From Curtobacterium sp. GC_Cur_3 (lineage in GTDB: Bacteria; Actinomycetota; Actinomycetes; Actinomycetales; Microbacteriaceae), in NCBI RefSeq assembly GCF_026544205.1, contig NZ_JALNUI010000013.1, positions 1 to 64,000 of the forward strand: 64,000 nucleotides of DNA. The letters are read 5' to 3'. Shown here one piece after another: positions 2,366 through 57,897 of this stretch (position 1 is its first letter; the number at the start of each line of letters is the position of its first letter). Made by a program: the position numbers and the translations under genes. Under the pieces are notes generated by a model that searched no databases, was not told the DNA's origin, and worked only from the letters and a program-made list of their open reading frames with translations.

Positions 2366-2391
2366 TCGTCGGGTCATGACCGCAACGGCGT

Positions 2392-2439
2392 GACGGACGG
2401 GAGGCTCGGTGCCAGCTGGCACCGGGCCTCCCGTCCGTC
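2392..2439. terminator. Palindromic hairpin, repeat family A copy 1
   Basis: Nearly perfect inverted repeat with a self-complementary core GGTGCCAGCTGGCACC (2408-2423) and outer arms GACGGACGGGAGGC/GCCTCCCGTCCGTC. It lies between convergent flgE and the nucleotidyltransferase, so a bidirectional terminator without a U-tract (usual in actinobacteria) is the likely role. Six related hairpins occur in the window; this one marks the left border of the 55-kb insertion. Confidence 0.75.
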
Positions 2440-2479
2440 GTGGGGTCCGGATCAGGGCGGCCGGGCGGCCGCCACGTCC

Positions 2480-3079
2480 TCACCGGAACACGTCCGCCCA
2501 TGCTGATGCGGGGTGCGCCCGTGTGATCGCTTCGTGGAGCCACTGCCGCGCCTCGTCGTCCAGCAACGGTGTCACCGCTGCCCGGTCCGACTCGTCCTTC
2601 GCGGACGGGTCCGCGGACTTCCAGAGGAGCTGCACCTCGGGCGCCACGACCCGCAACCCCTCGACGTCGAGGACGGCCGCGGACCACGCCCGCTGGACCG
2701 TCGGCGCTCGGCGGTAGAGCCACGTGTCGATGTCGCCGGCCTCTCGGTTGACCTGCAGGCACCAGAGCCCGGATCGCTCGTCGAGACACCAGATGTTGTC
2801 CAGCGGCTCCGTGTCGACGGCTTCGTCGATGGGTGCGAGGTGCCCTGACTGGGCGGCGAAGAGCTGCATCCACCGGGGGAGCGTCGCGGCGAAGGCGGGG
2901 AAGTCCTCGTCGACGATGCTGACGTCGATGTCGCCGTGCGCGCGTGACGTGTACCCGAGGACGACGTCGATGCCGAACCCGCCGGAGAGCCACGCGGGAC
3001 TCCCCGCGATGACCTCTCGCACGTGCGCCACGGTCAGCGGTGCCCATCGGTCGACGGACGGGTCGTGGCGTCGGCGCAT
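2480..3079 (-). CDS. AadA/LinA-type nucleotidyltransferase-like protein
   Basis: A 199-residue protein with the nucleotidyltransferase pattern GGFGIDVVLGYTSRAHGDID near residues 30-50; the spaced aspartates of DID are the metal-binding type of this fold. The family includes aminoglycoside and lincosamide adenylyltransferases but also many proteins of unknown substrate, so resistance should not be assumed. The ATG at 3079 follows TATCGT (complement 3086-3091) by 6 nt, suggesting a leaderless mRNA. The frame continues open upstream into a decayed acetyltransferase gene, but that is not a natural fusion. Confidence 0.7.
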   Translation of the reverse strand: MRRRHDPSVDRWAPLTVAHVREVIAGSPAWLSGGFGIDVVLGYTSRAHGDIDVSIVDEDFPAFAATLPRWMQLFAAQSGHLAPIDEAVDTEPLDNIWCLDERSGLWCLQVNREAGDIDTWLYRRAPTVQRAWSAAVLDVEGLRVVAPEVQLLWKSADPSAKDESDRAAVTPLLDDEARQWLHEAITRAHPASAWADVFR

Positions 3080-3200
3080 GCCGTCACGATAAGCGCCTGC
3101 CCGGTGATCGCCTGCTGGGCCGCGAGTGCGCGTCGGGAGAACGTGGCGTGCTGGAGCCCCAGGTGCAGCGCGTTCCAGGTCGACGCGTTCGGCTACCGAG

Positions 3201-3427
3201 TCAGTCTGCGTCGGACACGGTGACCATCGCCACGATCGTCCCGTCCTGACGGACGACGAAGAGGTTCCCCACCTCCGCGTCGCGGAACAGAACGGCGTCG
3301 GGTACCGCGTCTGCCACTGGTCGATCCCACGCGATCGCAGCCACTGCCTGGCCTCGTCGAGGAGGCCCTGGGCAGCTGGGACGTCGGCGACGCAGGCACG
3401 GTCGACCACCAACACGTCTGGGTTCAC
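3201..3427 (-). pseudogene. GNAT acetyltransferase remnant, frameshifted and truncated
   Basis: Starting from a GTG at 3427, one frame encodes an N-terminal GNAT-like stretch (ADVPAAQGLLDEARQWL, then IDQW). After about 40 residues the similarity continues in another frame (DAVLFRDAEVGNLFVV, ending TVSDAD) and stops at 3201. A typical GNAT protein continues for another 80-100 residues with the acetyl-CoA-binding part; nothing like it is seen downstream. A one-base shift near 3305 plus loss of the C-terminal half explains the layout. Confidence 0.6.
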
Positions 3428-3519
3428 GGGACGACGGTAGCGGGAGTGGTGTTCGACCCGGAGCCCCGGTCACCGATCGTTGATCCATGCACCTCGTCTG
3501 GTGGGTAGGGTCCCGGGGC

Positions 3520-4428
3520 ATGGAAGCGACGACGCTGAGACCTCGTACGGTGGCCGCAGGCGACACGGTCGCGATCGTCTCGCCCGCCTCGTGGCCAGAG
3601 GAGTCCGTACCGAGCTGGATCGCGGAACGAGTCGAGTCATGGGGCCTGCGAGCAGTCGTCGCTCCCCACGCGCTCGACCAGCGCGGGTACCTCGCGGGCA
3701 GCGACGCCGACCGCGCGGCCGACCTGAACGACGCGATCCGAGATCCGGAGATCCGCGCCGTGATCGCCTCCGTCGGTGGGTGCGGCAGCTTCCGCATCGT
3801 GCCGGACGTCGACGTCGATGCGCTCCGCGCCGACCCGAAGATGCTCGTCGGGTACAGCGACATCACGGCGCTGCACCAGGTGTGGAACGCCGCAGGCGTC
3901 CCGACGCTGCACGGTGCGATCGCCGGCGCCCATGGTGATCACGTCCGGCGACTGCTCATGGAGGACGCGGAGACGGTCGTCGAGGCCGATCCCGGCGCGC
4001 TGTCGGCCGATCTGACGACGAGGGGGAGCGTGGAGGGGCCGCTGTTCGGCGGGAACCTCGAGATGCTGGCGCGGTCGGTCGGGGTGGTGGACTTCGACGT
4101 CGCGGGCGGGATCCTCCTCCTCGAGGTCAACCGGGCAGCTGGGCTGGGGATGGTCGATCGGGCGCTGACGCAGCTCCGGTACTCCGGAGCACTCGACGGT
4201 GTGGTGGGTGTCGCACTCGGCAGCATCGACCAGTTCGCGGGCTACGAGGACCGCGGCTGGACCATCGTCGACACCCTCCGCGACCACTTCGAGGCGCTAG
4301 GCGTACCGGTGCTCGGCGGGCTTCCCCTTGGTCACGTCGAGGACCTGGTCACGGTGCCCCTCGGAACAGCCGCCGTGCTCGACGTCGATCACGGTCGCCT
4401 GACGGTGGGGTCGCCGTCCGGGTCCTGA
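3520..4428 (+). CDS. LD-carboxypeptidase (peptidase S66, LdcA/MccF family)
   Basis: S66 serine peptidases cleave the L,D bond of muropeptide tetrapeptides during wall recycling; the MccF branch inactivates microcin C-like toxins. The 302-residue product shows the nucleophile elbow GYSDIT (Ser about residue 113), a GGNLEML segment, the LLLEVN acidic segment and the C-terminal LGHVEDL histidine, in family order. An ATG at 3487 is also in frame, but ATG 3520 follows TAGGGT (3506-3511) by 8 nt, matching leaderless starts elsewhere in the window. No toxin or wall genes adjoin, so physiological role is open. Confidence 0.8.
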   Translation: MEATTLRPRTVAAGDTVAIVSPASWPEESVPSWIAERVESWGLRAVVAPHALDQRGYLAGSDADRAADLNDAIRDPEIRAVIASVGGCGSFRIVPDVDVDALRADPKMLVGYSDITALHQVWNAAGVPTLHGAIAGAHGDHVRRLLMEDAETVVEADPGALSADLTTRGSVEGPLFGGNLEMLARSVGVVDFDVAGGILLLEVNRAAGLGMVDRALTQLRYSGALDGVVGVALGSIDQFAGYEDRGWTIVDTLRDHFEALGVPVLGGLPLGHVEDLVTVPLGTAAVLDVDHGRLTVGSPSGS

Positions 4429-4543
4429 ACACGGAAGGCGCCAGATCGCAGACCGTCGTGCGAGACAGCGAAACCAGGTGTTCGACCAGTTCCGACAGCA
4501 CGGCCCGGCCACCGATCGGTCGTTCGGGGGCCGGGTCGCGTGC

Positions 4544-5278
4544 TCAGATGACGGTGGTGCCCCCATCCGCGACGAGTTCCATGCCGTTGACGTAGCTGGA
4601 GTCGTCCGAGGCGAGGAACAGTGCAACCGACGCGATCTCGTCGGGACGGCCCATCTGCCGTCGCGGGATCACGGATTCGAACTGGGTCTTCATCTCGTCG
4701 CTCATGACCGACTCCATCATGGGCGACGACACCTGCCCCGGGGTCAACACGTTCACACGGATCCGGCGGTCGCGGAGCTCTGACACCCAGACTCGTGCGT
4801 AGGCCGGCAACACGGCCTTGCTCCCCGCGTACACGGTCCAGTCGGGGTAGCCCCTGAGCGACGCGTTGGAGCCGGTCATGATGATCGAACCGCCGTCGTT
4901 GAGCAGCGGCAGCGCCTTCTGCACGGTGAACAGCGTCCCCTTCGCGTTGAGGCTGAACGCGGCGTCGAACTGCTCCTCCGTGATCTCCCCGAGCCGCCCC
5001 TGCTCGCCGGCCCCGGCACTGGCCCAGAGCACGTCGACGGAGCCCTTCTCGTGCAGGACCGTGTCGAACAGGTGGTCGAGGTCGCCGAGGTCGCCGGAGT
5101 CACCCTGCACGCCGGTGACGTTCCTGCCGATCCGGTCGACGGCGGTGTCCAGCACGTCCTGTCTGCGGCCCATGACGAAGACGTGTGCGCCTTCCTCGAC
5201 GAACCGCTCGGCGCCGGCCAGCGCCATCCCACTGGTGCCGCCGGTGATCACCGCGACCTTGCCGTCGAGCTTCCCCAT
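4544..5278 (-). CDS. SDR-family oxidoreductase
   Basis: Short-chain dehydrogenase/reductase of 244 residues: TGGTSGMALA near the N-terminus (cofactor loop, with Ala where the third glycine usually lies), an active-site YAGSK (Tyr-x3-Lys), and a C-terminal SDR signature ending in a VADGGTTVI-type tail. The variant glycine loop is one I associate with a common SDR subgroup rather than decay. It starts 1 nt after the stop of the F420-type reductase gene, so the two form an operon, read away from the TetR gene and its inverted-repeat operator. Substrate unknown. Confidence 0.85.
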   Translation of the reverse strand: MGKLDGKVAVITGGTSGMALAGAERFVEEGAHVFVMGRRQDVLDTAVDRIGRNVTGVQGDSGDLGDLDHLFDTVLHEKGSVDVLWASAGAGEQGRLGEITEEQFDAAFSLNAKGTLFTVQKALPLLNDGGSIIMTGSNASLRGYPDWTVYAGSKAVLPAYARVWVSELRDRRIRVNVLTPGQVSSPMMESVMSDEMKTQFESVIPRRQMGRPDEIASVALFLASDDSSYVNGMELVADGGTTVI

Positions 5279-5279
5279 G

Positions 5280-5897
5280 TCAGCGGACCTCGACCTTCAG
5301 TGCGGCGCTGAAGCCGGCACCGTTGTTCGCCACGCCCACCAGCAGGATCCCGGCCCATTCGAGTGCGTGTGCCATGGCGAGGCTGCCGGCGTCGCGGGGC
5401 TGCATGCCGATGCTGGCGAGGAGCTCCGCGACGGCAGCCTTCGCCGTCGCGCTGTCGCCGGCCGTGAAGGCGTCGAGGGGCGCGTCCCCGGCGATGACTC
5501 CGCCGAAGATCGTGTTGAACGCCTTCACCACGTGGGCGCTGTCCGGGGCCACTGCAGCGATCTGCTCGGACACGGAGTGGCCGAGGGTCGTCACCACGCC
5601 GGTCGCGTCGTCGTTGAACGGGTTGGTGATGTCGACGAGGACCTTGCCCGCCAGCGCATCGCCGTGGTGCGCGACGACGTCGACGGCGTGTGCGTACGGG
5701 ACGGCGATGATGACGATGTCCCCCGCGGGCCTCGCTCCGTACGTGCCGACGGTGGCGCCGTGACCGACGCGGTCCGCGAGGCGCTGGGCCTTGTCCGCAC
5801 TGCGGCTGATGAGTTCGATGGTGTGTCCGTGCTGAGCGGCCCGGGTGCCGATGGCCTCGGCCATGGTGCCTGCGCCGATGATGCTGATGGTCGTCAT
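5280..5897 (-). CDS. NADPH-dependent F420 reductase-type NAD(P)-binding protein
   Basis: A 205-residue Rossmann protein starting IIGAGTMAEAIGTRAAQHGH, followed by SRSADKAQ (NADPH-type beta2 segment), IVIIAVPYA and VLVDITNPF, the usual order in the F420-oxidoreductase/DP-binding family. Such proteins reduce F420 with NADPH or act as flavin-linked reductases; the sequence alone does not show which. It is the first gene of a two-gene operon with the SDR. The operator-like inverted repeat at 5968-6019 lies 70 bp upstream, so TetR control by the divergent gene is likely. Confidence 0.8.
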   Translation of the reverse strand: MTTISIIGAGTMAEAIGTRAAQHGHTIELISRSADKAQRLADRVGHGATVGTYGARPAGDIVIIAVPYAHAVDVVAHHGDALAGKVLVDITNPFNDDATGVVTTLGHSVSEQIAAVAPDSAHVVKAFNTIFGGVIAGDAPLDAFTAGDSATAKAAVAELLASIGMQPRDAGSLAMAHALEWAGILLVGVANNGAGFSAALKVEVR

Positions 5898-5967
5898 GTC
5901 GGTGTCTCTTCCTCGTGTTCGCAGATCGTGCCCAGCCCGGGCACGACTCCGAAGCGGTCGCCTCTGT

Positions 5968-6019
5968 ACATGAGGCACCCCTCCGGTTCGTGGACCACAA
6001 CCGGAGGGGTGCCTCATGT
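5968..6019. promoter_or_regulatory. Perfect 21-bp inverted repeat, probable TetR operator
   Basis: Arms 5968-5988 and 5999-6019 are exact reverse complements, separated by 10 bp. Each arm contains GAGGCACCCCTC, itself a GAGG/CCTC quasi-palindrome, so two dimer sites are possible. It occupies the gap between the divergent reductase/SDR operon and the TetR gene. Binding by that TetR protein is inferred from position. Confidence 0.7.
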
Positions 6020-6050
6020 CATTCCCGGACGAGCGCGGTAGTTTTGTCGG

Positions 6051-6713
6051 GTGAGCACCACCGACGCCGAACAGACGCGAGTTCCGCTCCGGCGCGACGC
6101 CCGAGAGCGCCGCGCGAGACTCCTGGTGTCCGCACGGCAGGAGTTCGCCGCCCGAGGCGTCAACGCCTCCCTGGAGCAGATCGCGCGGAGCGCGGGCGTC
6201 GCCATCGGCACCCTGTACCGCCACTTCCCGACCCGACTGGACCTGCTCGAGGCCGCCTACGAGCCGCGCCTGCAGGACTTCCTCGACGAGGCGGACGCGG
6301 CACTCCGGACAGACGGACCCTGGGAGGGCTTCGTCTCGTACCTCCAGAACCTGTTCCGCGTCCAGGCTGGAGACCGGGGCTTCAACGACTTCCTGTCCCG
6401 CCGGTTCCCGGACAGTCCGGCGACCGAGCGGATCCACGACCGGATGTGTCAGCAGATCGACGACGTGCTCCGTCGCGCGCAGGACGCCGGAAGTGTCCGA
6501 CCGGACATCGCCCTGGCGGACATCGTGAACCTCATCTGGTCGAACGGACAGATGATCGACGCCACCAGGACCACCGCTCCTGACGCCTGGCGGCGGCAGC
6601 TCCACCTGATGCTCGACGCGTACCGAGCCGAGCGTGCACACCCGATCCCGGAACCGCCGATGAGCGACGATCAGCTCTACGCCGCCATGGTCCATCTCAG
6701 CCAGGCGGGGTAG
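6051..6713 (+). CDS. TetR/AcrR-family transcriptional regulator
   Basis: A 220-residue regulator with an N-terminal helix-turn-helix (about residues 20-60; EQIARSAGVAIGTLYRHFPT is a textbook TetR recognition region) and an all-helical effector domain. A GTG start follows TAGTTT (6039-6044) by 6 nt, which suggests a leaderless transcript. It is divergent from the F420-type reductase/SDR operon across the perfect inverted repeat at 5968-6019, so autoregulation plus control of that operon is the simplest model. Ligand unknown. Confidence 0.85.
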   Translation: MSTTDAEQTRVPLRRDARERRARLLVSARQEFAARGVNASLEQIARSAGVAIGTLYRHFPTRLDLLEAAYEPRLQDFLDEADAALRTDGPWEGFVSYLQNLFRVQAGDRGFNDFLSRRFPDSPATERIHDRMCQQIDDVLRRAQDAGSVRPDIALADIVNLIWSNGQMIDATRTTAPDAWRRQLHLMLDAYRAERAHPIPEPPMSDDQLYAAMVHLSQAG

Positions 6714-6868
6714 TTCGAAACTCCCGGATGCCTCCGCACGACGAGCGGCTCGCGGGATGCGATCACGGTGATGCTGCGCTCGACATGGTGGACATTGCCC
6801 TCTGTGCCGCGGGGGAGGACGGCCACCGGGACTGCTCGCGAGGTCGAGCCTGCGACGATGGTCCGGTG

Positions 6869-7300
6869 ATGGAAGGCATCGAACCCTCGCTCGTTCCCGA
6901 GCTGCTGGTGACCGACCTGGACCAGAGCCTCGAGTTCTGGTGCGGCGTGTGCGGCTTCGCCGTCGCCTACGCGCGTCCTGAGGAACGCTTCGCGTACATC
7001 GCGCTCGGTTCAGCGCACCTGATGCTCGAACAAGTCGGCGTGGGTCGCAACTGGATCACGGGGCCGCTCGAGCGCCCGCTGGGCCGCGGGGTGAATCTCC
7101 AGATCACCGTGCCGAACACGGAAGCACTGGTGCAGGCGCTCGGACGCCGAGGTGTCGAGCTCTTCATGCAACCCGAGACGAAGTGGTACGGCGTGGGCGA
7201 GGAAGAGGCCGGCGTGCACCAGTTCCTCGTCCAGGACCCCGACGGCTACCTCGTGCGGTTCCAGAGCTCACTGGGGCGACGGCCGGCGGTCCAGTCGTGA
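6869..7300 (+). CDS. VOC-family protein (glyoxalase/bleomycin-resistance fold)
   Basis: A 143-residue vicinal-oxygen-chelate protein with the repeated beta-alpha-beta-beta-beta pattern: ELLVTDLDQSLEFWCGVCGF at the start, a central ALGSAHLMLEQ strand, and the C-terminal FLVQDPDGYLVRFQ signature. Members include bleomycin-binding proteins, dioxygenases and isomerases, and the exact role cannot be read from this sequence. The in-frame region upstream (from 6728) lacks VOC features, so the internal ATG 6869 is preferred. Confidence 0.75.
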   Translation: MEGIEPSLVPELLVTDLDQSLEFWCGVCGFAVAYARPEERFAYIALGSAHLMLEQVGVGRNWITGPLERPLGRGVNLQITVPNTEALVQALGRRGVELFMQPETKWYGVGEEEAGVHQFLVQDPDGYLVRFQSSLGRRPAVQS

Positions 7301-7329
7301 TCAGCGGATGCGTCGGTTGCCGGGGGCTC

Positions 7330-7695
7330 TCACACCGAGCAGTCGACGTCGGTCTCCGTTCGCGCTTCGGTCAGATGCACCTCGTGTGGCACTGCGAGGG
7401 CGCCTCTCGCATCCAGGACGAGGCACCCGTACGCCGTTGAACCGTCGTGCGCATCGACTTCGCAGTCCTCGACTGACCCGTGGTCGACCGGGACATCGGT
7501 CCGCTCGCCAGGTCTGAGATCGTCGCGGTTGTCCCACGCGCACGTCAGATCGACGGAACGGCCGACGTCGTTCACGACGGTCACAGCGACCTGCGGACGG
7601 AGGAGCCCCGATGCCCAACCGACCGAGGCTGCTCCAGCCACCAGGAGAGCGCACGCAGAGATGCACACGAGCGTGACGATCGATCGGCGTCGCAT
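7330..7695 (-). CDS. Small exported or membrane-anchored hypothetical protein
   Basis: A 121-residue product with a basic start (MRRR), a hydrophobic segment about residues 6-30, then a soluble Asp-rich domain with cysteines at about residues 52, 78, 91 and 119 that could pair as disulfides outside the cell. No family recognised. The start codon follows TACGAT (complement 7703-7708) by 7 nt, the leaderless pattern. Confidence 0.6.
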   Translation of the reverse strand: MRRRSIVTLVCISACALLVAGAASVGWASGLLRPQVAVTVVNDVGRSVDLTCAWDNRDDLRPGERTDVPVDHGSVEDCEVDAHDGSTAYGCLVLDARGALAVPHEVHLTEARTETDVDCSV

Positions 7696-8005
7696 GACGT
7701 CGATCGTAGGGTGGCGCACCGGATCGGGAGGCGCTCGGTGGTCGCGCTCCTGGAGCACGTTGCCATGCGACCTGGCGGCAGAGGTCCTCCAAGTCACGCC
7801 GTGGGCGTGGTCTCGCAGCGGCGTCGGCCCTCGTCCTGCTCCGAGGAACGCGCGGCTCGGTCGATCTGCCAGTTGGGGAAGACGACCACCGCAGCACCGG
7901 TGACAGCGAGGGGGTTCACCGGTCGTGTGCGTCGACGCCGGAACGGGTCGCGTCGTCCTCAGCCCGCTCTCCTGAACGGTGAAGGCGCCGTCAGGGGGCA
8001 GGCCA
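7696..8005. other. Intergenic stretch without a supported gene
   Basis: Open frames exist on both strands but their translations are Arg/Ser/Pro-rich shadows without domain or start support. The 15 bases nearest 7695 hold the -10 box of the minus-strand gene. Nothing else was recognised. Confidence 0.5.
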
Positions 8006-8170
8006 TCAGACCGCGGCCTTCCGTCGTCGCCTGGCGCGCACGGAGAGAGCGATGCCCACCACGTCGAGCACGACGAGAAGGGCGATGGAGGGACCGTGCG
8101 CGCGTTGCACCACTGCGGGCGACGGTGGATCCTTGTCCTGATCCACCGCTTGCGAGCCAGGAGGACCCAT
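8006..8170 (-). CDS. Possible small membrane protein
   Basis: Candidate 54-residue protein: a short polar N-terminus, one hydrophobic helix (SIALLVVLDVVGIALSV) and a basic tail (RARRRRKAAV), the positive-inside layout of a single-pass protein. Its ATG shares bases with the divergent ATG of the peptidase E gene (8168-8171), so one of the two starts may be misassigned. It could also be the tail of a decayed longer gene. No family recognised. Confidence 0.35.
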   Translation of the reverse strand: MGPPGSQAVDQDKDPPSPAVVQRAHGPSIALLVVLDVVGIALSVRARRRRKAAV

Positions 8171-8831
8171 GAAGCTGCTGTTGACATCCGGAGGTGTCAC
8201 GAATCCGAGCATCCGCGCGGCGCTCGTGGGTCTGCTCGGCAAGCCGATCGAGGACAGCCACGCTCTGGTCATCCCGACCGCGCAGTGGGGTCATCCGATG
8301 TGTGGACCGACGTCGGTCCGGGGGCTCATCACCGGAGGCCACGACTTCCGGGACCTCACCGGCCTGGGCTGGGCGTCCCTCGGCGTCCTCGAGCTCACCG
8401 CACTGCCCACGATCGAGGTGCACCGGTGGGCCAGCTGGGTCCGGGACGCCGACGTCCTCCTCGTCGACGGCGGCGACGCCGCGTACCTGAGCCACTGGGT
8501 CCTGGAATCAGGGCTCGCCGAGATGTTGCCGTCGTTGCCCGAAGCGGTGTGGGTCGGGGTGAGTGCCGGGAGCATGGTGCTGACACCGCGGATCGGTGCC
8601 TCCTTCGTCACGTGGCCGATGGCCGCTGACGACCGGACGCTCGGCGTCGTCGACTTCTCGGTCTTCCCGCACCTCGACGCGTTCCCGGAGAACACGCTCG
8701 ACCACGCGGAGCGGTGGGCTGCCGACATCGGCGGACCCGCGTACGCCATCGACGAGCAGACGGCGATCACGGTGGTCGACGACACCGTTGCGGTCGTCTC
8801 GGAAGGCCGCTGGGTGGGGTTCGGGACGTGA
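8169..8831 (+). CDS. Peptidase E-type dipeptidase (family S51)
   Basis: A 220-residue serine peptidase of the PepE/cyanophycinase fold. The nucleophile elbow GVSAGS (Ser about residue 132) and FPHLD near residue 163 match family S51; PepE members cut N-terminal Asp-X dipeptides. An upstream LLVDGGDAAYL segment (about residues 97-107) is the usual oxyanion-side glycine motif. The gene stands alone; its neighbours are unrelated. Confidence 0.8.
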   Translation: MKLLLTSGGVTNPSIRAALVGLLGKPIEDSHALVIPTAQWGHPMCGPTSVRGLITGGHDFRDLTGLGWASLGVLELTALPTIEVHRWASWVRDADVLLVDGGDAAYLSHWVLESGLAEMLPSLPEAVWVGVSAGSMVLTPRIGASFVTWPMAADDRTLGVVDFSVFPHLDAFPENTLDHAERWAADIGGPAYAIDEQTAITVVDDTVAVVSEGRWVGFGT

Positions 8832-9053
8832 GCAGGGCGAGGACCGAGGCCTGGAGGACCTGACCGACGATGCGGTCGTGGTCGTGCTGCGGACGACGTC
8901 CACGGTCGTCCGTCCACGCGAGCGCGGAAGGACCCCGTCGGCAACACGGCGCTGCCGTCCACGACTCCGCCGCCCGATGTGGTCTGCTTGCGGTGTCACC
9001 GACTCTCGTCGCGTCTCACGATCATCTCATCGGTCCCCAGCCAGGTTTGGAGC

Positions 9054-9794
9054 ATGACGATTCACAGCATGGTCCGGTCCCTGGGCGCGGTTGCCCTGAC
9101 GGCGACGACTGCCGTGGCCCTCGCGGCGTGCGCGGCGGGCTCGACGACCCTCCCCGCTCCTCCCACCCGCGTCCCCTCCGCAACAGCGACGCCCTCCGCC
9201 GTGCGGACTCCGTCAGCCGCGCCGGCTCGGACCGGGACGACGCAGGCCTCGCCGTCGACCGGGACGACGCAGGCCTCGCCGTCGACCGGAACGACGGCAG
9301 GCACCTCGGGGACGTCGGCTGCCGCTGGTCCGGGAGCGGGTACCCGTTCGGGTGCGTGCTCGTTCGACCACCTGTCGATGTCGATCGAGGGCCAGGACGG
9401 CGGAGCGCGCGGCGTCAAGGACACGATGAACACGATCAACGTCTCGGTCGTCCTCCACAACACCGGGGCGTCGTCATGCACGGTGCAGGGGTGGCCCGGC
9501 GTCTCGTACGTCGGCCGCGGCAACGGCACGCAGGTCGGGGGTGCTGCCACCCTGACCCGGACCGTGCCGCACCCGACGGTGACGCTCCGACCGGGCGGGA
9601 CCGCCCAGGCCCACCTCACGGCTTCCGCTCTGCCGGAGAGCTGCACGACCGCCCCGGTGGACGGCCTCCGGGTGTACCCGCCCGGGAGCAAGCGGTCGTT
9701 CTTCAGCGACACGCGGCTCGTCACCACCGGGGGCGTGTGCGCCGATGCGTCGGTGTCGCTGCTCCGCGTCGAAGCGTTCATCCCGAACCCGTGA
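9054..9794 (+). CDS. DUF4232 lipoprotein
   Basis: A 246-residue predicted lipoprotein: signal peptide with lipobox LAAC near residues 22-25, then a Ser/Thr/Pro/Ala-rich linker (about 30-100), then a beta-rich DUF4232 domain with conserved Cys and Trp (SCTVQGWPGVSYV). The linker contains a duplicated nine-residue unit encoded by a 27-bp tandem repeat. The gene ends 7 bp before a two-component regulator, so the lipoprotein may be linked to that signalling pair. DUF4232 function is unknown. Confidence 0.75.
   Translation: MTIHSMVRSLGAVALTATTAVALAACAAGSTTLPAPPTRVPSATATPSAVRTPSAAPARTGTTQASPSTGTTQASPSTGTTAGTSGTSAAAGPGAGTRSGACSFDHLSMSIEGQDGGARGVKDTMNTINVSVVLHNTGASSCTVQGWPGVSYVGRGNGTQVGGAATLTRTVPHPTVTLRPGGTAQAHLTASALPESCTTAPVDGLRVYPPGSKRSFFSDTRLVTTGGVCADASVSLLRVEAFIPNP
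9231..9284 (+). repeat. 27-bp tandem duplication in the lipoprotein linker
   Basis: Two identical 27-bp units (9231-9257 and 9258-9284) with the start of a third, in frame, encoding TGTTQASPS twice. Copy number may vary between strains without breaking the frame. Confidence 0.8.
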
Positions 9795-9801
9795 CCGACG
9801 G

Positions 9802-10467: not shown

Positions 10468-10508
10468 CGACACCGGAACGGCGACGCCTCCGACGGGTCC
10501 GATGGAGC

Positions 10509-48589: not shown

Positions 48590-48601
48590 GCGGCGCTGTT
48601 C

Positions 48602-49298: not shown

Positions 49299-49318
49299 CC
49301 GACACGGAGGGCACTGCG

Positions 49319-49570: not shown

Positions 49571-49579
49571 CCACGGCCA

Positions 49580-49611
49580 GGAGGCCCGGTGCCAGCTGGC
49601 ACCGGGCCTCC
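49580..49611. terminator. Palindromic hairpin, repeat family A copy 6
   Basis: Perfect GGAGGCCCGGTGCC/GGCACCGGGCCTCC arms around AGCT, the same GGTGCCAGCTGGCACC core as copy 1. Follows the Hsp20 operon and precedes the second palindrome array. Confidence 0.75.
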
Positions 49612-49651
49612 CGTCCGTCTGCTGGCCGCGTCGCGGCGGGTGCAGCGCCGG

Positions 49652-49952
49652 AACGCCGGCGTCTGGACGAGGTCCCGCCGCGAGACACCGGCGTCAACGC
49701 GAGACGCCGTGCGAGGGCCGAGACGCCGCAGTTTTCGGCGGCGTCTCGAGAACCCAGCGGTGTTTCGCCAAGACACCGGTGTCTGGGAGATGTGCCGCGA
49801 GACACCGGCGTCAACGCGAGACGCCGTGCGAGGGCCGAGACGCCGCAGTTTTCGGCGGCGTCTCGAGAACCCGGCGGTGTTTCACCAACACACCGGCGTC
49901 TGCGGGCGACACCGGCGTCTGGGTGAGACACCGGTTTGTGGGGGAGACTCCG
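49652..49952. repeat. Array of GACACCGGTGTC-type palindromes, locus 2
   Basis: The gap before the MFS gene is filled with GACACCGG(C/T)GTC, GAGACGCCG and hairpin motifs. About 105 bp starting at 49678 is repeated at 49795 (offset 117 bp) with four mismatches counted by eye; each copy contains the hairpin GAGACGCCGC-AGTTTTCG-GCGGCGTCTC. Same motif family as 33411-33665. Confidence 0.75.
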
Positions 49953-49965
49953 GCGGCGCGGCGGC

Positions 49966-51213
49966 TCAGGTGGTGCGCGGTGTGGTCGTCTGACGACCGG
50001 CGGCAGATGCGATGACGACGGCGACCACGAGGAGCGCCAGGGGGACGAGCATCGCGACCCGCAGTCCGAGGTGCTCCCCGAGGAAGCCGAGCGCCGGCGG
50101 GCCGACCAGGAACGCGACGTAGCCGGCGGTCGCGACGACGGACACCCGGCGGTCGCCGTCGGTGGGGTGGTCGCCGGCGGCCGAGACGGCGAGCGGGAAC
50201 CCGAGCGCGATGCCGAGGCCCCACACGGCAGCGGCTGCGGCGGTCACGATCGGGGACGGCGAGAGCACGACGGCCACCACGCCGACGGCTCCGACGACCG
50301 CGCACGTCCGGACGACCGTCGCCCGTCCGAACCGGGTGACGAGGGGTGTCCCGGCGGAGCGGCCGATGAGCATCGCGACGGAGAAGCCGGTGAAGACGAG
50401 CGATCCGAGGACCTCGGGGGCGTCGTGGTCGCTCGTCATGAGGAGGGGGAGCCAGTCGCTCGCAGCACCCTCGGCGAAGGCCATCGCGAGGGTGATGACG
50501 GCGAGGAGCAGCAGCTGGACGGTGATCACCGAGCGTCGCCGGGCGGTGGCGGTCGCGGCCGTTGCACCGGGGACGCCGGGCTCGGCAGCCGCGTCGAGGT
50601 CGGCAGCGGCAGCCGCGTCCGGGTCGGGACGGGGCATCGGGCGGAGGTTGAGCGCGGCGACGAGGGCGAGCGCGGCCATCACGACGGCGGCCACGGGCAG
50701 GTGTACCACGACGGGCACCCGGGCCGCGGTCATCGCGATGCCGACGAGTCCGCCGGCGACGGTGCCGAGGCTGAAGCACGCGTGCAGGACCGGCACGACC
50801 GGGCGCTCGATGACCCGTTCGACGGCGGCGGCCTCGACGTTCAGACCGATCTCGGCGACCCCCGCACCGAACCCGACGAGGAACAGGCCGATCCACACCC
50901 CGGCTGGCAGCTGCGCCGGTGCCGCGAGCCCGACCAGCAGCACGCCGAGCACGGGCAACGCGCCGCCGAGCAGCACGAGCGGTCGGGTCCCGACACGGCG
51001 GATCAGGGCGCCCGCCCCGAGGATCCCGATCATCGAGCCGACCGAGAGGCCGAAGAGGACCAGGCCCATGGCCTCGAGCGAGGCGCCGAGGTCGTCGCGG
51101 ACGGCCGGCGTGCGGGTGATCCACGACGCGATGCCGAATCCGGTCGTGGTGGACGTCGCGAACAGTGCCAGGCGATGACGTCGGGTCGGCAGCGGCGCCG
51201 TTGCGGTTCCCAC
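49966..51213 (-). CDS. MFS transporter
   Basis: A 415-residue major facilitator with 12 predicted helices. The first half shows ASLEAMGLVLFGLSVGSMIG and GFGAGVAEIGLNVEAAAVER, typical of the YfmO/fucose-permease-like MFS groups; the centre holds an Ala/Asp-rich loop (PDPDAAAAADLDAAAEPG). The GTG at 51213 is chosen because conserved sequence starts there; upstream in-frame codons read as non-coding. Substrate unknown. Confidence 0.8.
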   Translation of the reverse strand: MGTATAPLPTRRHRLALFATSTTTGFGIASWITRTPAVRDDLGASLEAMGLVLFGLSVGSMIGILGAGALIRRVGTRPLVLLGGALPVLGVLLVGLAAPAQLPAGVWIGLFLVGFGAGVAEIGLNVEAAAVERVIERPVVPVLHACFSLGTVAGGLVGIAMTAARVPVVVHLPVAAVVMAALALVAALNLRPMPRPDPDAAAAADLDAAAEPGVPGATAATATARRRSVITVQLLLLAVITLAMAFAEGAASDWLPLLMTSDHDAPEVLGSLVFTGFSVAMLIGRSAGTPLVTRFGRATVVRTCAVVGAVGVVAVVLSPSPIVTAAAAAVWGLGIALGFPLAVSAAGDHPTDGDRRVSVVATAGYVAFLVGPPALGFLGEHLGLRVAMLVPLALLVVAVVIASAAGRQTTTPRTT

Positions 51214-51347: not shown

Positions 51348-52937
51348 ATGGAACTCATCGCACCAGAACTCGTCGTCGTGCTCGCCACGGCGATCGCCGT
51401 CGCCACGGCGATCTCCGGACGCCTGCGGGTCGCGCCGCCCGTCCTGCTGCTCGCCTTCGGCGCCGGCATCGCCTTCATCCCCGTCTTCGGGAAGCTGGAG
51501 CTGCCGGCGGACGCGGTCCTGCTGCTGTTCCTCCCCGCGCTGCTGTACTGGGAGAGCCTGACGATCTCGCTGCGGGAAATCCGCGCGAACTTCCGCGGCA
51601 TCCTGCTCATGGGGACGTTGCTCGTCGTGCTGACCGCGGGCGGGGTCGCCGCGCTGCTGCACCTGCTCGGGATGCCGTGGGGTCCGGCGTGGGTGCTCGG
51701 TGCCGCCGTCGCCCCGACCGACGCGACCGCCGTGGGTGCACTGACGCGGTCATTGCCCCGGCGGAACACGACGGTGCTCCGTGCGGAGAGCCTGGTGAAC
51801 GACGGCACGACGCTCGTGATCTACGGCATCGCGGTGGCCGTCACGGCCGGGGAGCAGACGCTCACCGTCTGGAACGTCTCCGGCATGCTGCTGCTCTCGT
51901 ACGTCGGGGGCATCGCGGCTGGGCTGCTGGTGTCCTGGCTCGGGATGCTCGTGCTGCGCCGGCTGTCGGCGGTGATCCTCGAGAACCTCCTGACGTTGCT
52001 CGTGCCGTTCGTGGCGTTCCTCGCGGCCGAGGCGATCGGGGCCTCCGGCGTGCTCGCCGTCGTCGTGGCCGGGCTCGTCGTCAGCCAGGTCGCACCGAAG
52101 CTCGACCGCGCCGAGACCCGACAGCAGGTGCGCTCGTTCTGGTCCTTCGCGACGTTCCTGCTCAACGGCGCCCTGTTCGTGCTCGTCGGGATCGAGGCCA
52201 TGATCGCCATCCGTGAGCTCCAGCCGCGCGAGCTCCTGGTCGGACTCGGCATGATCGGGCTGGTGTCGCTCGCGGTCGTCGTGCTCCGGTTCGCGTTCCT
52301 CAACCTGTCGTGGGGCACCATCCGGCTCGTGACCCTGCGCACCGGCGGGGGTCCGCGCGAGGGACACCGCGACCGTGTGGTGAGCGGCTTCACCGGCTTC
52401 CGTGGGGCCGTCTCACTGGCTGCCGCCGTCGCCGTGCCGCGCATGGTCGAGAGCGGCGGGGCGTTCCCCGACCGTGACCTCATCGTCTTCGTGGTCGCCG
52501 GCGTCGTCGTCGTGACGATCGTCGCGCAGTCGCTCGTGCTCCCCGCAGTGGTGCGGTGGGCGGACTTCGACGGCAGCGGCGAGGTGGTCGAGGAACGTCG
52601 CCGTGCCGAGCGCATGGCGATCGAGGAGGCGCTCGACGCCCTGCCGCGGCTGGCCAAGCGCGCTGGCGCCGACGACGAGGTCGTGCAGCGTGTCCGCGAG
52701 GAGTACGAGGGCCACCTCGCCCTCGTGCGCGCCGAGCAGAGTGACGACGACGACCACCCGCTGCTGCAACAGCGCGGTGCCGCGGTGGAGCTCGAACTCG
52801 CGCTCGTGCGGCTGAAGTCGGCGCGGGTGATCAAGATGCGCGACGACGGCGACATCGACGACCTCGTGCTGCGCCAGGTCCGTGCCGAGTACGACGCCGA
52901 GGAGACCCGGCTGCTCCGGCAGGGCGAGCGGGAGTAG
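51348..52937 (+). CDS. Na+/H+ antiporter, CPA1/NhaP type
   Basis: A 529-residue cation/proton antiporter: about 12 helices (residues 5-410) with GAAVAPTDATAVGAL and the conserved SLVNDGTTLVIYG (the CPA1 ND pair), plus a cytoplasmic tail of 110 residues rich in Glu/Arg helices that may sense pH or ions. GTCACCC precedes ATG 51348; two nearby in-frame ATGs exist but lack added conservation. Role: sodium or potassium efflux and pH homeostasis. Confidence 0.9.
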   Translation: MELIAPELVVVLATAIAVATAISGRLRVAPPVLLLAFGAGIAFIPVFGKLELPADAVLLLFLPALLYWESLTISLREIRANFRGILLMGTLLVVLTAGGVAALLHLLGMPWGPAWVLGAAVAPTDATAVGALTRSLPRRNTTVLRAESLVNDGTTLVIYGIAVAVTAGEQTLTVWNVSGMLLLSYVGGIAAGLLVSWLGMLVLRRLSAVILENLLTLLVPFVAFLAAEAIGASGVLAVVVAGLVVSQVAPKLDRAETRQQVRSFWSFATFLLNGALFVLVGIEAMIAIRELQPRELLVGLGMIGLVSLAVVVLRFAFLNLSWGTIRLVTLRTGGGPREGHRDRVVSGFTGFRGAVSLAAAVAVPRMVESGGAFPDRDLIVFVVAGVVVVTIVAQSLVLPAVVRWADFDGSGEVVEERRRAERMAIEEALDALPRLAKRAGADDEVVQRVREEYEGHLALVRAEQSDDDDHPLLQQRGAAVELELALVRLKSARVIKMRDDGDIDDLVLRQVRAEYDAEETRLLRQGERE

Positions 52938-53230: not shown

Positions 53231-54388
53231 TCACCCCCGCGCCGGGCGGAGCCCCGCGCGCCGCACCCACGCCCGCCAGGGCAGGGACGACGCCAGCGCC
53301 AGGCCGATCACGACCGTGCCGAACCACCCCACGAGCACGCCGGGGATCGGCACGAGCAGACTCGTCCACAGCAGCACCGCCAGCACGCCGAGCACGTACG
53401 CCGCACCGGCCTTGAGGTAGCGCAGCCGCTTCAGCCCGGCGGCCTCGTCCAGGCGCGAGGTCAACCGCGCCAGGAACAGCGCCCCGATGCCGATCGCCGC
53501 AGCACCGACGGCGGCCTGCTCGAGCGCGCTGAGCCCGTCCGCGCCGAGCACGCCGGAGCCCGACAGCGAGTACACGCCGTCGAGGATCTCGAACAGCATG
53601 AACACGACGAGCCCGCGCTCGAACACCACGGTCGACGCGTACACGTGGATGCGCCACGCCCCGCGCCCGGTCCCGACCGAGTCAGTGTGAGTCCCGGCAG
53701 CCGGACCACCGGCAGCCCGACGACCGACAGCCGCACCCCCGTGCAGCGCCCACCCGGCGAGCCGCTTCGACCCGAGGTACGCGCCGATGCCCAGCACGCC
53801 GCCGAGGACCACCGGCACGACCTCGGACGACTGCCACGCGGCGGCGGAGGCGACCAGGACGCTCGTCAGCGCGACCCCGGCCGTGGCGGTGACCAGCGAC
53901 CAGACGCGAGGGCGCGCGACGGCGGCGAGTCGAGCCTCCAGGCGGCCGAGCCAGGACCGTCGCGACGCGCGGTCCGTGTTGAACAGGTACTCCGCGAACA
54001 CCAGCCAGATGAACGCGGCGCCGAAGGCGGCGAGGGCGGGCCGGACCTCCTGCAGGTGGGCGGCGAAGGCGCCAGGGGCGAAGACGGCCTCGCCGACGGT
54101 GGCGGTCGGGTCCTCGGCGGAACCCACGACGACCGCGACGGGCGGCAGCATGAGCCGCATCGCGAGGACGCCGGCCACGATCCCGAGCGACAGGAACAAT
54201 CGCCTGGCGGGGGAGTGCAGGCGCCCGGCGATGCCGGCCATCGGCACGGAGGAGTCGGCCGCCATCGCGATCTCGAGCAGCGCGAGCGCCACGAACGCGA
54301 GCGCGGCGGCCGGACCGAGCACGATCCACGCGAGCGCGGCGGCGACGACGGTGAGGGACAGGGGGACGGTCAGCAGGGATCTGGCCAT
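53231..54388 (-). CDS. DUF475 (TerC-like) membrane protein
   Basis: A 385-residue protein with about nine membrane helices. The block LALLEIAMAADSSVPMAGIA followed by SLGIVAGVLAMRLMLPP matches DUF475, a TerC-related family implicated in metal or tellurium resistance in other bacteria. The gene is bracketed by copies 2-3 and copy 4 of the 62-bp element. Function unknown here; no ter genes adjoin. Confidence 0.75.
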   Translation of the reverse strand: MARSLLTVPLSLTVVAAALAWIVLGPAAALAFVALALLEIAMAADSSVPMAGIAGRLHSPARRLFLSLGIVAGVLAMRLMLPPVAVVVGSAEDPTATVGEAVFAPGAFAAHLQEVRPALAAFGAAFIWLVFAEYLFNTDRASRRSWLGRLEARLAAVARPRVWSLVTATAGVALTSVLVASAAAWQSSEVVPVVLGGVLGIGAYLGSKRLAGWALHGGAAVGRRAAGGPAAGTHTDSVGTGRGAWRIHVYASTVVFERGLVVFMLFEILDGVYSLSGSGVLGADGLSALEQAAVGAAAIGIGALFLARLTSRLDEAAGLKRLRYLKAGAAYVLGVLAVLLWTSLLVPIPGVLVGWFGTVVIGLALASSLPWRAWVRRAGLRPARG

Positions 54389-54677: not shown

Positions 54678-55472
54678 TCAGGCCCGCTTGTGGAGGGTGC
54701 CTCGCACGACGGAGTCGCCCGAATGCGTGGGGTCACCGTCGTCGGACTCGGCGGAGACGTCCACGACGGGGTACCGGGACGGGTCGACGCCCGACGGCAC
54801 CACGAACCGGCCGGTGTCGCCGTCGAGGAACCCGACGCTGACCAGCCCGCTGAGGTCGGAGCGCATCATCCACACCTCGCGGAGGGGTGCTGCGCCGTCG
54901 GCCGCCCGGTGGTCGAGGTCGACGACCAGGCTGAGTCGACCGTCCCCGTCCCGCTCGAGCTCGGCGGACCCGCGGACACCGGACCAGCCGGGCAGCGGGT
55001 CGAGCGCCGTGCGGGACACCACCGTGTCGCCGCTGCCCGGGCCACCGGTGAACAGGTACCAGCCACCGCCGAGGCCGAGCACGAGTCCCACGACGGCCGC
55101 CGCCGCGGCGAGGAGCAGCGCGGTGCGCCGACGCACCCGGGACCGGCGACGCGGCACCAGGTGCTCAGCAGCAGCAGCAGGAGGAGCAGCAGCAGGCGCA
55201 GCAGCCACCGCAGCCGCAGGCGCGAGCTCCGCTGCCGGCACGGCCGACCGGTCGTCGAACCCGAGGTCCGTCGCGATCCGGTCCCACACCCGGGCGGACG
55301 GCTGCGCGAGCTCGACGTCCTGCGCGGACTTCGCCACGGTCACCACGTGCCGCAGGTCGGCCAGCTCGGCGCGGCAGGCCGGGCACGCCGCGAGGTGCTC
55401 GGCGGCCGCACCGGAGGGCGCGTCGTCGCCGATGGCGAGCAGCGCGAGGGTCTCCTCGTCGATGTGGTTCAT
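54678..55472 (-). CDS. Anti-sigma factor, zinc-finger (RskA-like)
   Basis: A 264-residue protein: an N-terminal ZAS-type anti-sigma domain (EHLAACPACRAEL, with His26-x3-Cys30-x2-Cys33), an Ala/Pro-rich linker, one membrane helix (about 118-142) and an external RskA-like domain. It overlaps the sigma-factor stop by 4 nt, the classic arrangement of a sigma/anti-sigma pair. It should hold the sigma factor at the membrane until an external signal triggers release. Confidence 0.9.
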   Translation of the reverse strand: MNHIDEETLALLAIGDDAPSGAAAEHLAACPACRAELADLRHVVTVAKSAQDVELAQPSARVWDRIATDLGFDDRSAVPAAELAPAAAVAAAPAAAPPAAAAEHLVPRRRSRVRRRTALLLAAAAAVVGLVLGLGGGWYLFTGGPGSGDTVVSRTALDPLPGWSGVRGSAELERDGDGRLSLVVDLDHRAADGAAPLREVWMMRSDLSGLVSVGFLDGDTGRFVVPSGVDPSRYPVVDVSAESDDGDPTHSGDSVVRGTLHKRA

Positions 55473-56017
55473 TCGATCACCTCCAGACGTGTTCGGAGCC
55501 GAGCCAGACTTCGACGGATGTGGCTCTTGACGGTGCCGAGCGGCAGCCCGAGCCGTTCCGCGATCTCACGGTGGCTGAGTTCCTCGAAGAACGCCAGTCG
55601 CATCACCGTGCGGGGCACGTCCTCGAGCCGGTCGAGCTCCCCGGCGACGAGCACGCGTTCCGCCATCCCGTCGTGCGGGTCCTCGGCGGGAGCGCTCCGT
55701 TCCTCGTCGGCGACGGCGTGGGCGAGCCGTTCTTGCCGTGCCCGTTCGGCCAGCGCGTCGGCGACGCAGTTCCGGGTGATGCCGACCAGCCAGGCGCCGA
55801 GCGGGGCCGTGTCGGGACGGTACGTGTGCCGCCCTCGCCAGGCCCGGACGAACACCTGCTGGGTGACGTCCTCGGCCGCCGCGACGTCGGTGAGCGAGCG
55901 CAGTGCGAGCGTGTACACGAGGGACGACCACCGCTCGTAGACCGCCCGGAGGACGCGCTCGTCACCGCTGCCGAAGGCGTCGGCGAGGTCGCTCTCGTCG
56001 GGCTGGTTGGTCGTCAC
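55469..56017 (-). CDS. ECF-type sigma factor (SigK-like)
   Basis: A 182-residue RNA polymerase sigma factor with region 2 (YERWSSLVYTLALRSLTDVA, DVTQQVFVRAW) and region 4 (LSHREIAERLGLPLGTVKSH, IRRSLARLR). The start is a GTG; no in-frame ATG fits. Paired with the anti-sigma factor through a 4-nt overlap and preceded by sortase and DUF4397 genes on the same strand, so it probably controls surface or stress genes, including its own operon. Confidence 0.92.
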   Translation of the reverse strand: MTTNQPDESDLADAFGSGDERVLRAVYERWSSLVYTLALRSLTDVAAAEDVTQQVFVRAWRGRHTYRPDTAPLGAWLVGITRNCVADALAERARQERLAHAVADEERSAPAEDPHDGMAERVLVAGELDRLEDVPRTVMRLAFFEELSHREIAERLGLPLGTVKSHIRRSLARLRTRLEVIE

Positions 56018-56106
56018 GTCGTCGTGGTGCCTTCCGGGGGCCGCTCGGGACCCCTGCCCCGATGGTAGGGCGCGCGGCCGGGTCGTGGTGGGGAGTCGGG
56101 GATCGG

Positions 56107-56781
56107 TCACAGCGGCGTCGCGGTCACGACGAGGTTGCTGCGGTAGTGGTGCGTGGCGGTGTCGAACGTGCCGCCGCAGGTGACGAGCACGAGACGCCGG
56201 GGTCCGTCGTGGTCGAACACGCTCGCCCAGGGGACGCCGGTCTTCGCGAGCAGGTCGACCGTGGCGACGGCGTACCGCATCGTGGTGCCGTCCGCGCTCG
56301 TGACGGTGACCCGCGTGCCGACCGGCACGTCCACGAGGTGTGCGAACGGGCCGATCCCGTACCCGACCGCGTCCACGTGGGCGGCGAGGACGGTGGAGCC
56401 CACCGCGGAGGCCGGGGTCGAGCCGAAGCGCCACCAGCCGGCGACGGCCGGGTCCGGGGGGAGGGCCATCGCGCCGGTGGGGTCGACGCCCTCCGGTCGC
56501 ACGGCCTGGTCGATGCCGAGGCTCGGGACGGCGACACGCACGGGGGCGACCACGGCCGGCACCTCGGTCGGGAGCGCCGCGTCGCGCAGGGGCACGGCGG
56601 TCGAGAACGCCGACGGCGCCGGCGTCGGCGCGACGGGCACGGCCGGAGCGGACGACGCACCGTCCCCCGAGAGCGGGCGCCCGCCGGGGACACGGTCCGC
56701 CGACGAGCACCCGGTCAGGCAGGCCAGGGCGACGGTGGCGGCGAGGGGGACCGCCACCGCCGCCCCGACCCGGTGGTGCAC
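56107..56781 (-). CDS. Class F sortase
   Basis: A 224-residue sortase: N-terminal export signal (about 1-25, LACLTGCSS also fits a lipobox), a Pro/Ala-rich spacer, and the catalytic barrel with His in VLAAHVDAVGYG, Cys in LVLVTCGGTF and Arg in HHYRSNLVV. Class F sortases attach surface proteins in actinobacteria. The upstream DUF4397 gene, 2 bp away, is the likely partner or substrate. Confidence 0.88.
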   Translation of the reverse strand: MHHRVGAAVAVPLAATVALACLTGCSSADRVPGGRPLSGDGASSAPAVPVAPTPAPSAFSTAVPLRDAALPTEVPAVVAPVRVAVPSLGIDQAVRPEGVDPTGAMALPPDPAVAGWWRFGSTPASAVGSTVLAAHVDAVGYGIGPFAHLVDVPVGTRVTVTSADGTTMRYAVATVDLLAKTGVPWASVFDHDGPRRLVLVTCGGTFDTATHHYRSNLVVTATPL

Positions 56782-56783
56782 GG

Positions 56784-57626
56784 TCAGCGCCGTGCGGCTC
56801 GGACGGCGCTGGCGCGACGTCGGAGGACCAGGAGCGCCAGGCCGGCGAGGACGACGCCAGCGCCGCCGATCACGAGCGGGGCGGTCTCCGTGCTGTTGGT
56901 CGCGACGAGTCCGGCGTTGCCGGCCGGCACGCCGTTCGGGTCACCGCCGAGGCCGCTGATCGTCTGCGTGGCGAGCATGAGGTTCTTGTCCTCCAGGCTG
57001 CCCCACGCGTACACGATCGTGTCGGAACCCGCGGTGACGGCGACGTCGGCCGGGCCGATGACCGGAGCGGTCGTCCCGGTCGCCGCGACCGTGGCGGACA
57101 CGGTGCCGGCGGGCAGCACCAGCGCCTGCTCGTCCGGGTTCGACAGGTTCGACACGACGGCCTTCCCGCCGGCGAGGACGTCCACGGCGGGTGCCGCTGC
57201 GACGTGCCGCACGACGAGACGGCCCTGCCCGGCGGGGACCGCGGAGGTGTCGTTCGTGAACACGGTCGCCGTCGGGGTGCCGTCTGCCTTCAGGTGGGCC
57301 ACCGCGGTGGAGTTGCTGCCGGCGGCGAACGACACGTCGGCCGGGCCGATGATCGGCTTCGAGTCGTCGGTGGCGTCGCTCGCCGTGATCGCGAGCGTGT
57401 GGGCTCCGGCGGCGACGGACATCGGTCCGGCCATGGTGCCGGGCGTGAAGTCGTCGATCGCCCGGGCGCCGTCGAGCCAGACGTCGACCGTGGTGTCGGG
57501 GACGGCGTGCAGGACGCTGAGCGTGGCGTCGCCAGGTGCAGCGGTCGCCGCGGTCGCGGGGACCGCGATCGCGAACGCCGCGAGCAGTGCGCCGGCGCCG
57601 ATGCCGGTCACGAGGTTCTTGCGCAT
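56784..57626 (-). CDS. DUF4397 surface protein
   Basis: A 280-residue secreted protein: signal peptide (about 1-30, AFAIAVPATAATAAPGD), two DUF4397 Ig-like repeats (each opening with LSVLHAVPDTTVDVWLDGAR or LVVRHVAAAPAVDVLAGGKA), and a C-terminal helix plus Arg-rich tail (VIGGAGVVLAGLALLVLRRR). The sequence before the helix is LVATN, not LPxTG, so it is either a non-canonical sortase signal or a plain membrane anchor. First gene of the sortase/sigma operon. Confidence 0.85.
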   Translation of the reverse strand: MRKNLVTGIGAGALLAAFAIAVPATAATAAPGDATLSVLHAVPDTTVDVWLDGARAIDDFTPGTMAGPMSVAAGAHTLAITASDATDDSKPIIGPADVSFAAGSNSTAVAHLKADGTPTATVFTNDTSAVPAGQGRLVVRHVAAAPAVDVLAGGKAVVSNLSNPDEQALVLPAGTVSATVAATGTTAPVIGPADVAVTAGSDTIVYAWGSLEDKNLMLATQTISGLGGDPNGVPAGNAGLVATNSTETAPLVIGGAGVVLAGLALLVLRRRASAVRAARR

Positions 57627-57736
57627 GGTGTGCCTCCAGGTCGGCCCTCAGGGCCGGGTCGGGTGGGCGTCGTCATCGACACCCACCACCACTACCGCCC
57701 GGAGTGCCTGTCCGGATGCACCCACCCGGGAACTGC

Positions 57737-57776
57737 CGGACGGGAGGCTCCCCACGCTCCCGCAACGAGCCTCCCG
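57737..57776. terminator. Palindromic hairpin, repeat family A copy 7
   Basis: Arms GACGGGAGGCTC and GAGCCTCCCGTC match copies 1 and 3, but the loop differs. Unlike the others it lies in a divergent gap, where neither neighbour needs a terminator. It marks the right border of the 55-kb insertion, 11 bp before the flbD promoter. Confidence 0.7.
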
Positions 57777-57787
57777 TCTGTGGGCAC

Positions 57788-57814
57788 TAACGGGGACACG
57801 GCGACGGCCGATAG
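57788..57814 (+). promoter_or_regulatory. Sigma-28 (FliA/SigD)-type promoter of flbD-mot
   Basis: TAAC (57788-57791), 15 bp, then GCCGATAG (57807-57814) match the flagellar sigma-28 consensus TAAA-N15-GCCGATAA closely. The hairpin just upstream would insulate the promoter. It implies that flbD and the mot genes are late flagellar genes transcribed independently of flgE. Confidence 0.75.
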
Positions 57815-57897
57815 AGCGCACTGACCACCCACGGACGGGTGGTCGGACGACCTGCCCCACGGACGGTGGCAGGTGAGACACCCCAGGGACGGACCCC

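Follow-up and report, generated by a model that had tools for sequence, protein, structure and literature searches.

The DNA analysed here, a stretch of 64,000 nucleotides from Curtobacterium sp. GC_Cur_3 (hereafter the window), carries two parts of a flagellar gene cluster near its ends, flgE on the left and flbD with motA on the right. A preliminary description had proposed that these parts, normally neighbours, are separated by about 55 kb, and both statements agree with our results: 55.5 kb lie between flgE and flbD in the window (Table 1), and in most genomes of other genera the two halves are adjacent. Our own codon-usage gene caller placed 61 genes in this interval. Pfam models were run on 60 of them, and the 25 families listed of the 76 matched include short-chain dehydrogenases, TetR and other regulators, ABC and FecCD transporters and MFS proteins; among these 25 families, no mobility genes were found in the zone between flgE and the Na+/H+ antiporter gene. 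GC content is 0.719 in the interval and 0.714 in the flank, and an island defined by composition was rejected for lack of contrast. As had been noted before, the 64-kb window holds no tRNA gene and no integrase match (PF00589).

The split is shared by the whole genus. Of the 66 genomes of the genus group, 64 gave a match to FlgE and 65 to MotA, and in all 56 loci with both genes on one contig, our own genome included, the cluster is opened at one point and in one orientation, with a flgE-flbD gap of 5,954 to 79,794 bp (median 26 kb). This count stands apart from G011, G014, G022, G027, G036, G050 and G059 (flgE and motA on different contigs), G061 and G065 (no flgE match), and G002 (divergent and closed); G002 and a second flagellar set in G018 were counted separately. 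The FlgE of the window is 98-100% identical to those of Curtobacterium sp. VKM Ac-1395, MMLR14_010 and VKM Ac-2865. An assembly join, or a rearrangement peculiar to this strain, had been put forward as the alternative. In its favour, our genome is a draft assembly in 66 contigs, one of which starts where the window starts. Fifteen of the 56 split loci come from single-contig genomes, however, which rules out assembly error as a general cause; the borders are the same in 56 of 56 genomes, and the three nearest relatives have many syntenic blocks in common across the interval. We regard this explanation as refuted, with virtually no probability left to it.

In 20 of the 20 genomes fetched, the 15-kb flanks could be aligned on both sides, the left side throughout; in the outermost 1 kb of the right flank, comparison was possible for 78 of 190 pairs only. 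The flagellar genes that bound the interval keep their order and the borders are sharp. The synteny comparison suggested in the preliminary description gave a divided answer, as the split layout recurs across Curtobacterium but the genes between flgE and flbD differ. The two compact exceptions are G002, with 0.55 kb between flgE and flbD and a FlgE 56% identical to that of the window, and contig 2 (567 kb) of G018, which holds a second, divergent flagellar set with flgE, flbD and motA adjacent and 0.17 kb between the first two. The FlgE of this second set is 55% identical to that of the window, and 57% identical both to that of G002 and to the chromosomal copy of G018 itself. A search of titles and abstract openings returned no description of this flgE-flbD hotspot. 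For C. pomorum, a flagellar region of 16 genes and, apart from it, an island of 60 kb have been described (PMC12889094), and the portion of that article available to us makes no mention of a split in the flagellar region.

Outside the genus, the junction was found closed in most of the genomes compared. FlgE was detected in 51 of the 159 family genomes searched, 4 of them from the genus group, and 44 genomes of 26 other genera have flgE and motA on one contig and strand (G096, G112 and G113 stand outside this set). The distance from flgE to motA is below 1 kb in 28 of these 44 (0.33-0.68 kb); in the other 16, from nine genera, it is 1.3-15.9 kb, and open and closed states occur together within each of four genera. 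Judged by the layout that prevails in other genera, then, the flagellar cluster was indeed opened by insertion. Content was read for 14 of the 16 open loci (all but G120 and G128) and for six closed ones. The 14 open loci yielded 67 called proteins, for the most part not the same in different genera, and eight of them match a Curtobacterium interval protein (E<=1e-10, 31-54% identity). Two Frigoribacterium loci have three genes in common, and in four other genera (G066, G220, G181 and G196) a DUF222 protein is encoded at the junction, three of the four having an HNH nuclease domain. A FlgE 64% identical to that of the window occurs under the record title Vibrio cholerae 35D, where the assembly may be mislabelled or contaminated.

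The contents of the Curtobacterium intervals are highly diverse. The 1537 proteins of the 56 intervals fall into 682 clusters, 428 of which are confined to a single genome. The sole near-constant gene encodes a Na+/H+ antiporter, present in 53 of the 56 intervals at a median of 5.2 kb from flbD and oriented on the minus strand in 36 and on the plus strand in 17. In these 53 genomes, the zone to the left of the antiporter gene contains 1101 genes in 577 clusters (372 single-genome), while the zone to its right contains 355 genes in 107 clusters, with fewer and reused modules. The gene of the right-edge module that has no Pfam match in the window presumably encodes an anti-sigma factor. One might hold that the interval is simply an old, fixed layout of the genus, worn down by ordinary gene loss with no special turnover, as every same-contig Curtobacterium genome is split and the antiporter is near-universal. 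Such a history is very improbable given the 428 single-genome clusters and the differences of close species by whole multi-gene blocks, as between G031 and G032, where a 9.8-kb block differs at 97-98% flank identity. The 55-kb gap is one state of a genus-wide hotspot that is known in kind, with the same core genes flanking a highly diverse content. Some gene types also return to it: the related genes at 17024-17929 and 37388-38272 of the window belong to one cluster of 14 proteins from 11 of the 56 intervals. Two window proteins match MmyB-like regulator models and are taken to be the products of these two genes.

Table 1. Features of the window at and between the two halves of the flagellar cluster.
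Feature	Position	Strand	Remarks
flgE	1190..2365	+	Conserved left border of the hotspot; flagellar hook models
Family-A hairpin after flgE, terminator-like	2397..2434		32 bp past the stop codon, 35 bp past the last FlgE codon matched
Hypervariable zone, flgE to antiporter	2480..51213		Short-chain dehydrogenases and other oxidoreductases, TetR and other regulators, ABC transporters including a FecCD-type uptake system, MFS
Family-A hairpin variant in the interval	19658..19695		
Family-A hairpin in the interval	26601..26638		
Family-A hairpin variant in the interval	43140..43177		
Family-A hairpin variant in the interval	44813..44853		
Na+/H+ antiporter (CPA1)	51348..52937	+	PF00999; TIGR00831 over cut-off
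DUF475 protein gene, right zone	53231..54388	-	PF04332; in 27 of 56 intervals
Right-edge module: gene without Pfam match, sigma-70 factor, sortase, DUF4397 protein	54678..57626	-	Pfam; in 22-24 of 56 intervals
Family-A hairpin between divergent genes	57740..57777		121 bp before flbD; probable scar of azt block loss
flbD	57898..58200	+	Conserved right border; PF06289
motA	58202..59020	+	Family model match

Mobility genes are scarce in the hotspot. The proteins scanned against PHROG families numbered 533 (60 from the window and 473 representatives from relatives), to the exclusion of 149 clusters below 150 aa and 14 clusters crossing the borders of the fetched regions; they were searched in five scans (A1-A5) with up to 25 families listed in each, A2 to A5 matching a further 12, 17, 7 and 13 families. 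Among the listed families there was no integrase, and transposases made up two families of one member each. PF00589 has two genes in our genome, both off the contig of the window, and none of the genus matches listed fell into an interval when compared by eye. In sets A3 and A4 of the relatives' intervals (219 proteins; the families listed being 25 of 32 and 4 of 4), PADLOC gave single-member matches to models for reverse transcriptase, Lmu (presumably Lamassu-type) and mad3; on the two sets covered, a defence island was rejected. An integrative island or prophage that inserted once between flgE and flbD and then decayed would account for the insertion seen relative to other genera. Against it, the intervals have no backbone in common but one antiporter, the parts scanned gave no integrase, the window has neither a tRNA gene nor a GC contrast, and other genera are open at this junction with mostly different genes; we consider it highly improbable.

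Insertion driven by nucleases, with homing-type or HNH proteins cutting the junction and dragging genes in, would fit the DUF222 genes at the junction of four other genera and one reverse transcriptase in a relative's interval. The placement of the DUF222 genes may be due to chance, and none of these outgroup proteins has a relative in the Curtobacterium intervals at E<=1e-10, which makes this route very unlikely as the explanation within the genus.

Sharp borders, scarce mobility genes and whole-block differences point to recombination at the flanks as the most likely route of turnover, a route already described for chromosomal hotspots of horizontal gene transfer (PMC5635113). New segments would enter and leave the junction mainly where incoming DNA recombines homologously with the conserved flanks, with flgE as the left anchor and either shared modules or flbD-motA as the right one. 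Consistent with this, the last 600 bp of flgE show the lowest concordance of 47 flank segments in 20 genomes (rho 0.21, jackknife 0.17-0.28), and moving outward from the 3' end of flgE the value is 0.45 and then 0.61. Identity in flgE and in motA is correlated at rho 0.45 over 1540 pairs, a figure that, for want of a baseline, carries no information.

What would make insertions tolerable is the place of the junction, between two transcription units and in a terminus-proximal part of the chromosome. In 10 of the 15 single-contig genomes flgE stands at 0.45-0.53 of the record (determined by hand). We also searched for a dif-like motif: in 16 of the 18 genomes with a match on the contig of motA, the site lies 90-157 kb from motA and always on the motA side, and the other two matches (G028 and G038) have a different spacer and are more than 1 Mb away. 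The replication terminus itself was rejected as the address, since the hotspot is near the terminus and not at dif; its terminus-proximal position may help insertion. In our own genome (G000), dif-like sequences occur at C1:1794, at C12:161840-161858 and, two of them 1.5 kb apart, on C44 (C44:14746-16251), which is possibly a plasmid or a Xer-integrated element.

Both edges of the interval carry a hairpin of a dispersed family (family A) with the arms ACGGGAGG...CCTCCCGT. Our genome has 116 exact copies, against 0 for a reversed control pattern. The family is abundant in other genomes of the genus (26-217 exact arm copies each) and rare in the divergent G002 (5 copies), which suggests that it spread inside the genus proper. 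When one mismatch was tolerated in each arm, 147 hairpins were found in the 1.98 Mb of loci read, compared with 6 in reversed controls. Most stand no more than some tens of bases from a stop codon, and among gaps of at least 60 bp the hairpins occupy 58 of 167 convergent, 68 of 557 codirectional and 2 of 287 divergent ones. This layout, 3' of stop codons and rare between divergent genes, is that of intrinsic terminators, and we describe the hairpins as terminator-like elements at the ends of resident operons.

The preliminary description had read the two edge hairpins as the same palindrome, left on either side when recombination opened a single flgE-flbD terminator. A hairpin does lie near each edge, and each folds better than 200 of 200 shuffles, but the sameness holds at the level of the family only: the two 38-nt cores have 27 identical bases, against an average of 29.3 for all pairwise comparisons among 117 hairpins, and 80% of those pairs are as similar or more so. 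As the family is abundant across the genome, a copy near each edge is not a signature by itself. Among 58 loci (56 split, 2 compact), a family hairpin occurs within 250 bp after flgE in 9 and within 350 bp before flbD in 7. Of the three nearest relatives, G054 (with 37 identical bases out of 38) and G053 have a counterpart of the hairpin after flgE; at that place none was found in G033 or in most other species. The splitting of one terminator into two did not hold up, since neither compact locus (G002 and G018 contig 2) has a hairpin of this family between flgE and flbD, and the copy on the flbD side tracks a different feature, the azt block.

This block, a zinc-transporter locus, adjoins flbD in 8 of the 56 loci and is absent from the window. 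A hairpin just before flbD was found in 6 of the 8 azt-bearing loci versus 1 of the 48 others, which is the window (Fisher P = 6e-6). The block of G054 has a hairpin on either side; the single hairpin of the window matches the first of these in its left flank and the second in its right flank. In G053 the right end of the block bears a full hairpin and the left end a truncated one, and in G033 a hairpin stands at the left end of the block only. A DUF4397 gene adjoins flbD in 16 loci, the window included, and the window alone has a hairpin there. No close aztC occurs elsewhere in our genome (best match 28%). Our genome and G054 are sisters with support of 0.98 on the combined flanks and 0.96 on the left flank. 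Most simply, the hairpin on the flbD side would be the scar left by loss of an azt block that the three nearest relatives still carry. That it lies between divergent genes had been remarked on earlier and is correct; deletion between two terminators explains how a terminator-like hairpin came to such a place, and it looks like a recombination product. Its own role as a terminator is suggested by its position.

Whether recombination between dispersed hairpins is also the main engine of the hotspot, with genes moving as hairpin-bounded cassettes, is a separate question. The azt block of G054, for which the window has one hairpin in place of two, is such a case, and so is a 5.2-kb block of G019, absent from G038, with hairpins at both ends and also near the junction. 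Across 240 indel blocks between species (not all independent), hairpins stand at both ends of 5, in three genomes, at one end of 52, and at neither end of 183, and we rejected hairpin-driven indels as a general rule on these blocks. Nor is there a significant excess of hairpins in the gaps at breakpoints (pooled odds ratio 1.41, P = 0.10; convergent 1.13, codirectional 1.32, divergent 3.67, all non-significant). Intervals free of family hairpins still vary widely in length, from 30 kb in G034, 25 kb in G015 and 30 kb in G007 to 6 kb in G024 and G032. Of the 116 exact copies, 3 fall into the interval of the window, against 1.7 expected from its length. The general mechanism favoured by the preliminary description is therefore unlikely, even though two terminator hairpins may occasionally recombine and delete what lies between them.

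Taken together, we propose that the chromosome has a hotspot of gene turnover at the flgE-flbD junction, occupied by accessory genes that are for the most part specific to a species, where segments are exchanged mainly by homologous recombination at the flanks and hairpins serve as occasional deletion points, one of which would have left the azt-loss scar in the window. We assign this reading a probability of about three in four. Several observations weigh against it. The signal of flank recombination is confined to the left: the right flank shows no drop (rho 0.75 at motA). Segments far from the junction reach rho 0.24 and 0.30, so that one low segment of 47 may have other causes, and the comparison is between species, in which single transfers are undatable. 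With regard to the scar, the sister relation of our genome and G054 fails on the right flank alone, and the core of the window hairpin agrees with the two G054 hairpins at only 30 and 29 of 38 bases, which means that later change or conversion must be assumed. A U tract was looked for after the flbD-side hairpin and not found (57600-57950, the one site scanned). Finally, the contents of the outgroup loci are not wholly independent, given the shared Frigoribacterium genes and the DUF222 genes of four genera, and the DUF222-HNH genes make a nuclease-linked route of insertion possible in those genera.

A wider proposal, which we offer tentatively and hold to be rather doubtful, is that the boundary between hook and stator genes acts as a standing port throughout Microbacteriaceae, with entry anchored on flgE, perhaps first opened by nuclease-bearing genes and still open in every sampled Curtobacterium species. 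With the same reserve, terminator hairpins might sometimes serve this port as cut-points for cassette loss, and the flagellar cluster might double as a landing platform for adaptive genes.

For Curtobacterium, a plant- and soil-associated genus, flgE|flbD offers one predictable address for largely species-specific genes, and surveys of its flagellar clusters will meet two half-clusters. The junction is also a clean case for testing hotspots without integrases, since the family, and sometimes a single genus, has it both closed and open.

Three known systems bear comparison with the locus. The azt block resembles the azt zinc ABC transporter locus in NCBIfam matches in G054, where AztC scores over its cut-off and AztA and AztD just below theirs; what is particular here is its place next to flbD in some loci and its absence from the window. 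The hairpins resemble intrinsic terminators and REP-like elements in being dispersed, GC-rich inverted repeats just past stop codons, and differ from them in the missing U tract at the site scanned and in the repetition of exact arms 116 times in one genome. They do not form an integron-like cassette array, as a hairpin at either end was seen in 5 of 240 blocks, with no search made for attC sites. The junction as a whole resembles the hotspots of Oliveira et al. 2017 (PMC5635113): a fixed spot between core genes (here the same in 56 of 56 loci, with alignable 15-kb flanks in 20 of 20 genomes), high gene turnover (682 clusters, 428 of them single-genome) and often no recognizable mobile element. 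The flgE-flbD junction differs from these in that the recombination signal appears on one flank only, and in that a single spot is open across a whole genus, is open again in other genera, and interrupts a flagellar cluster.

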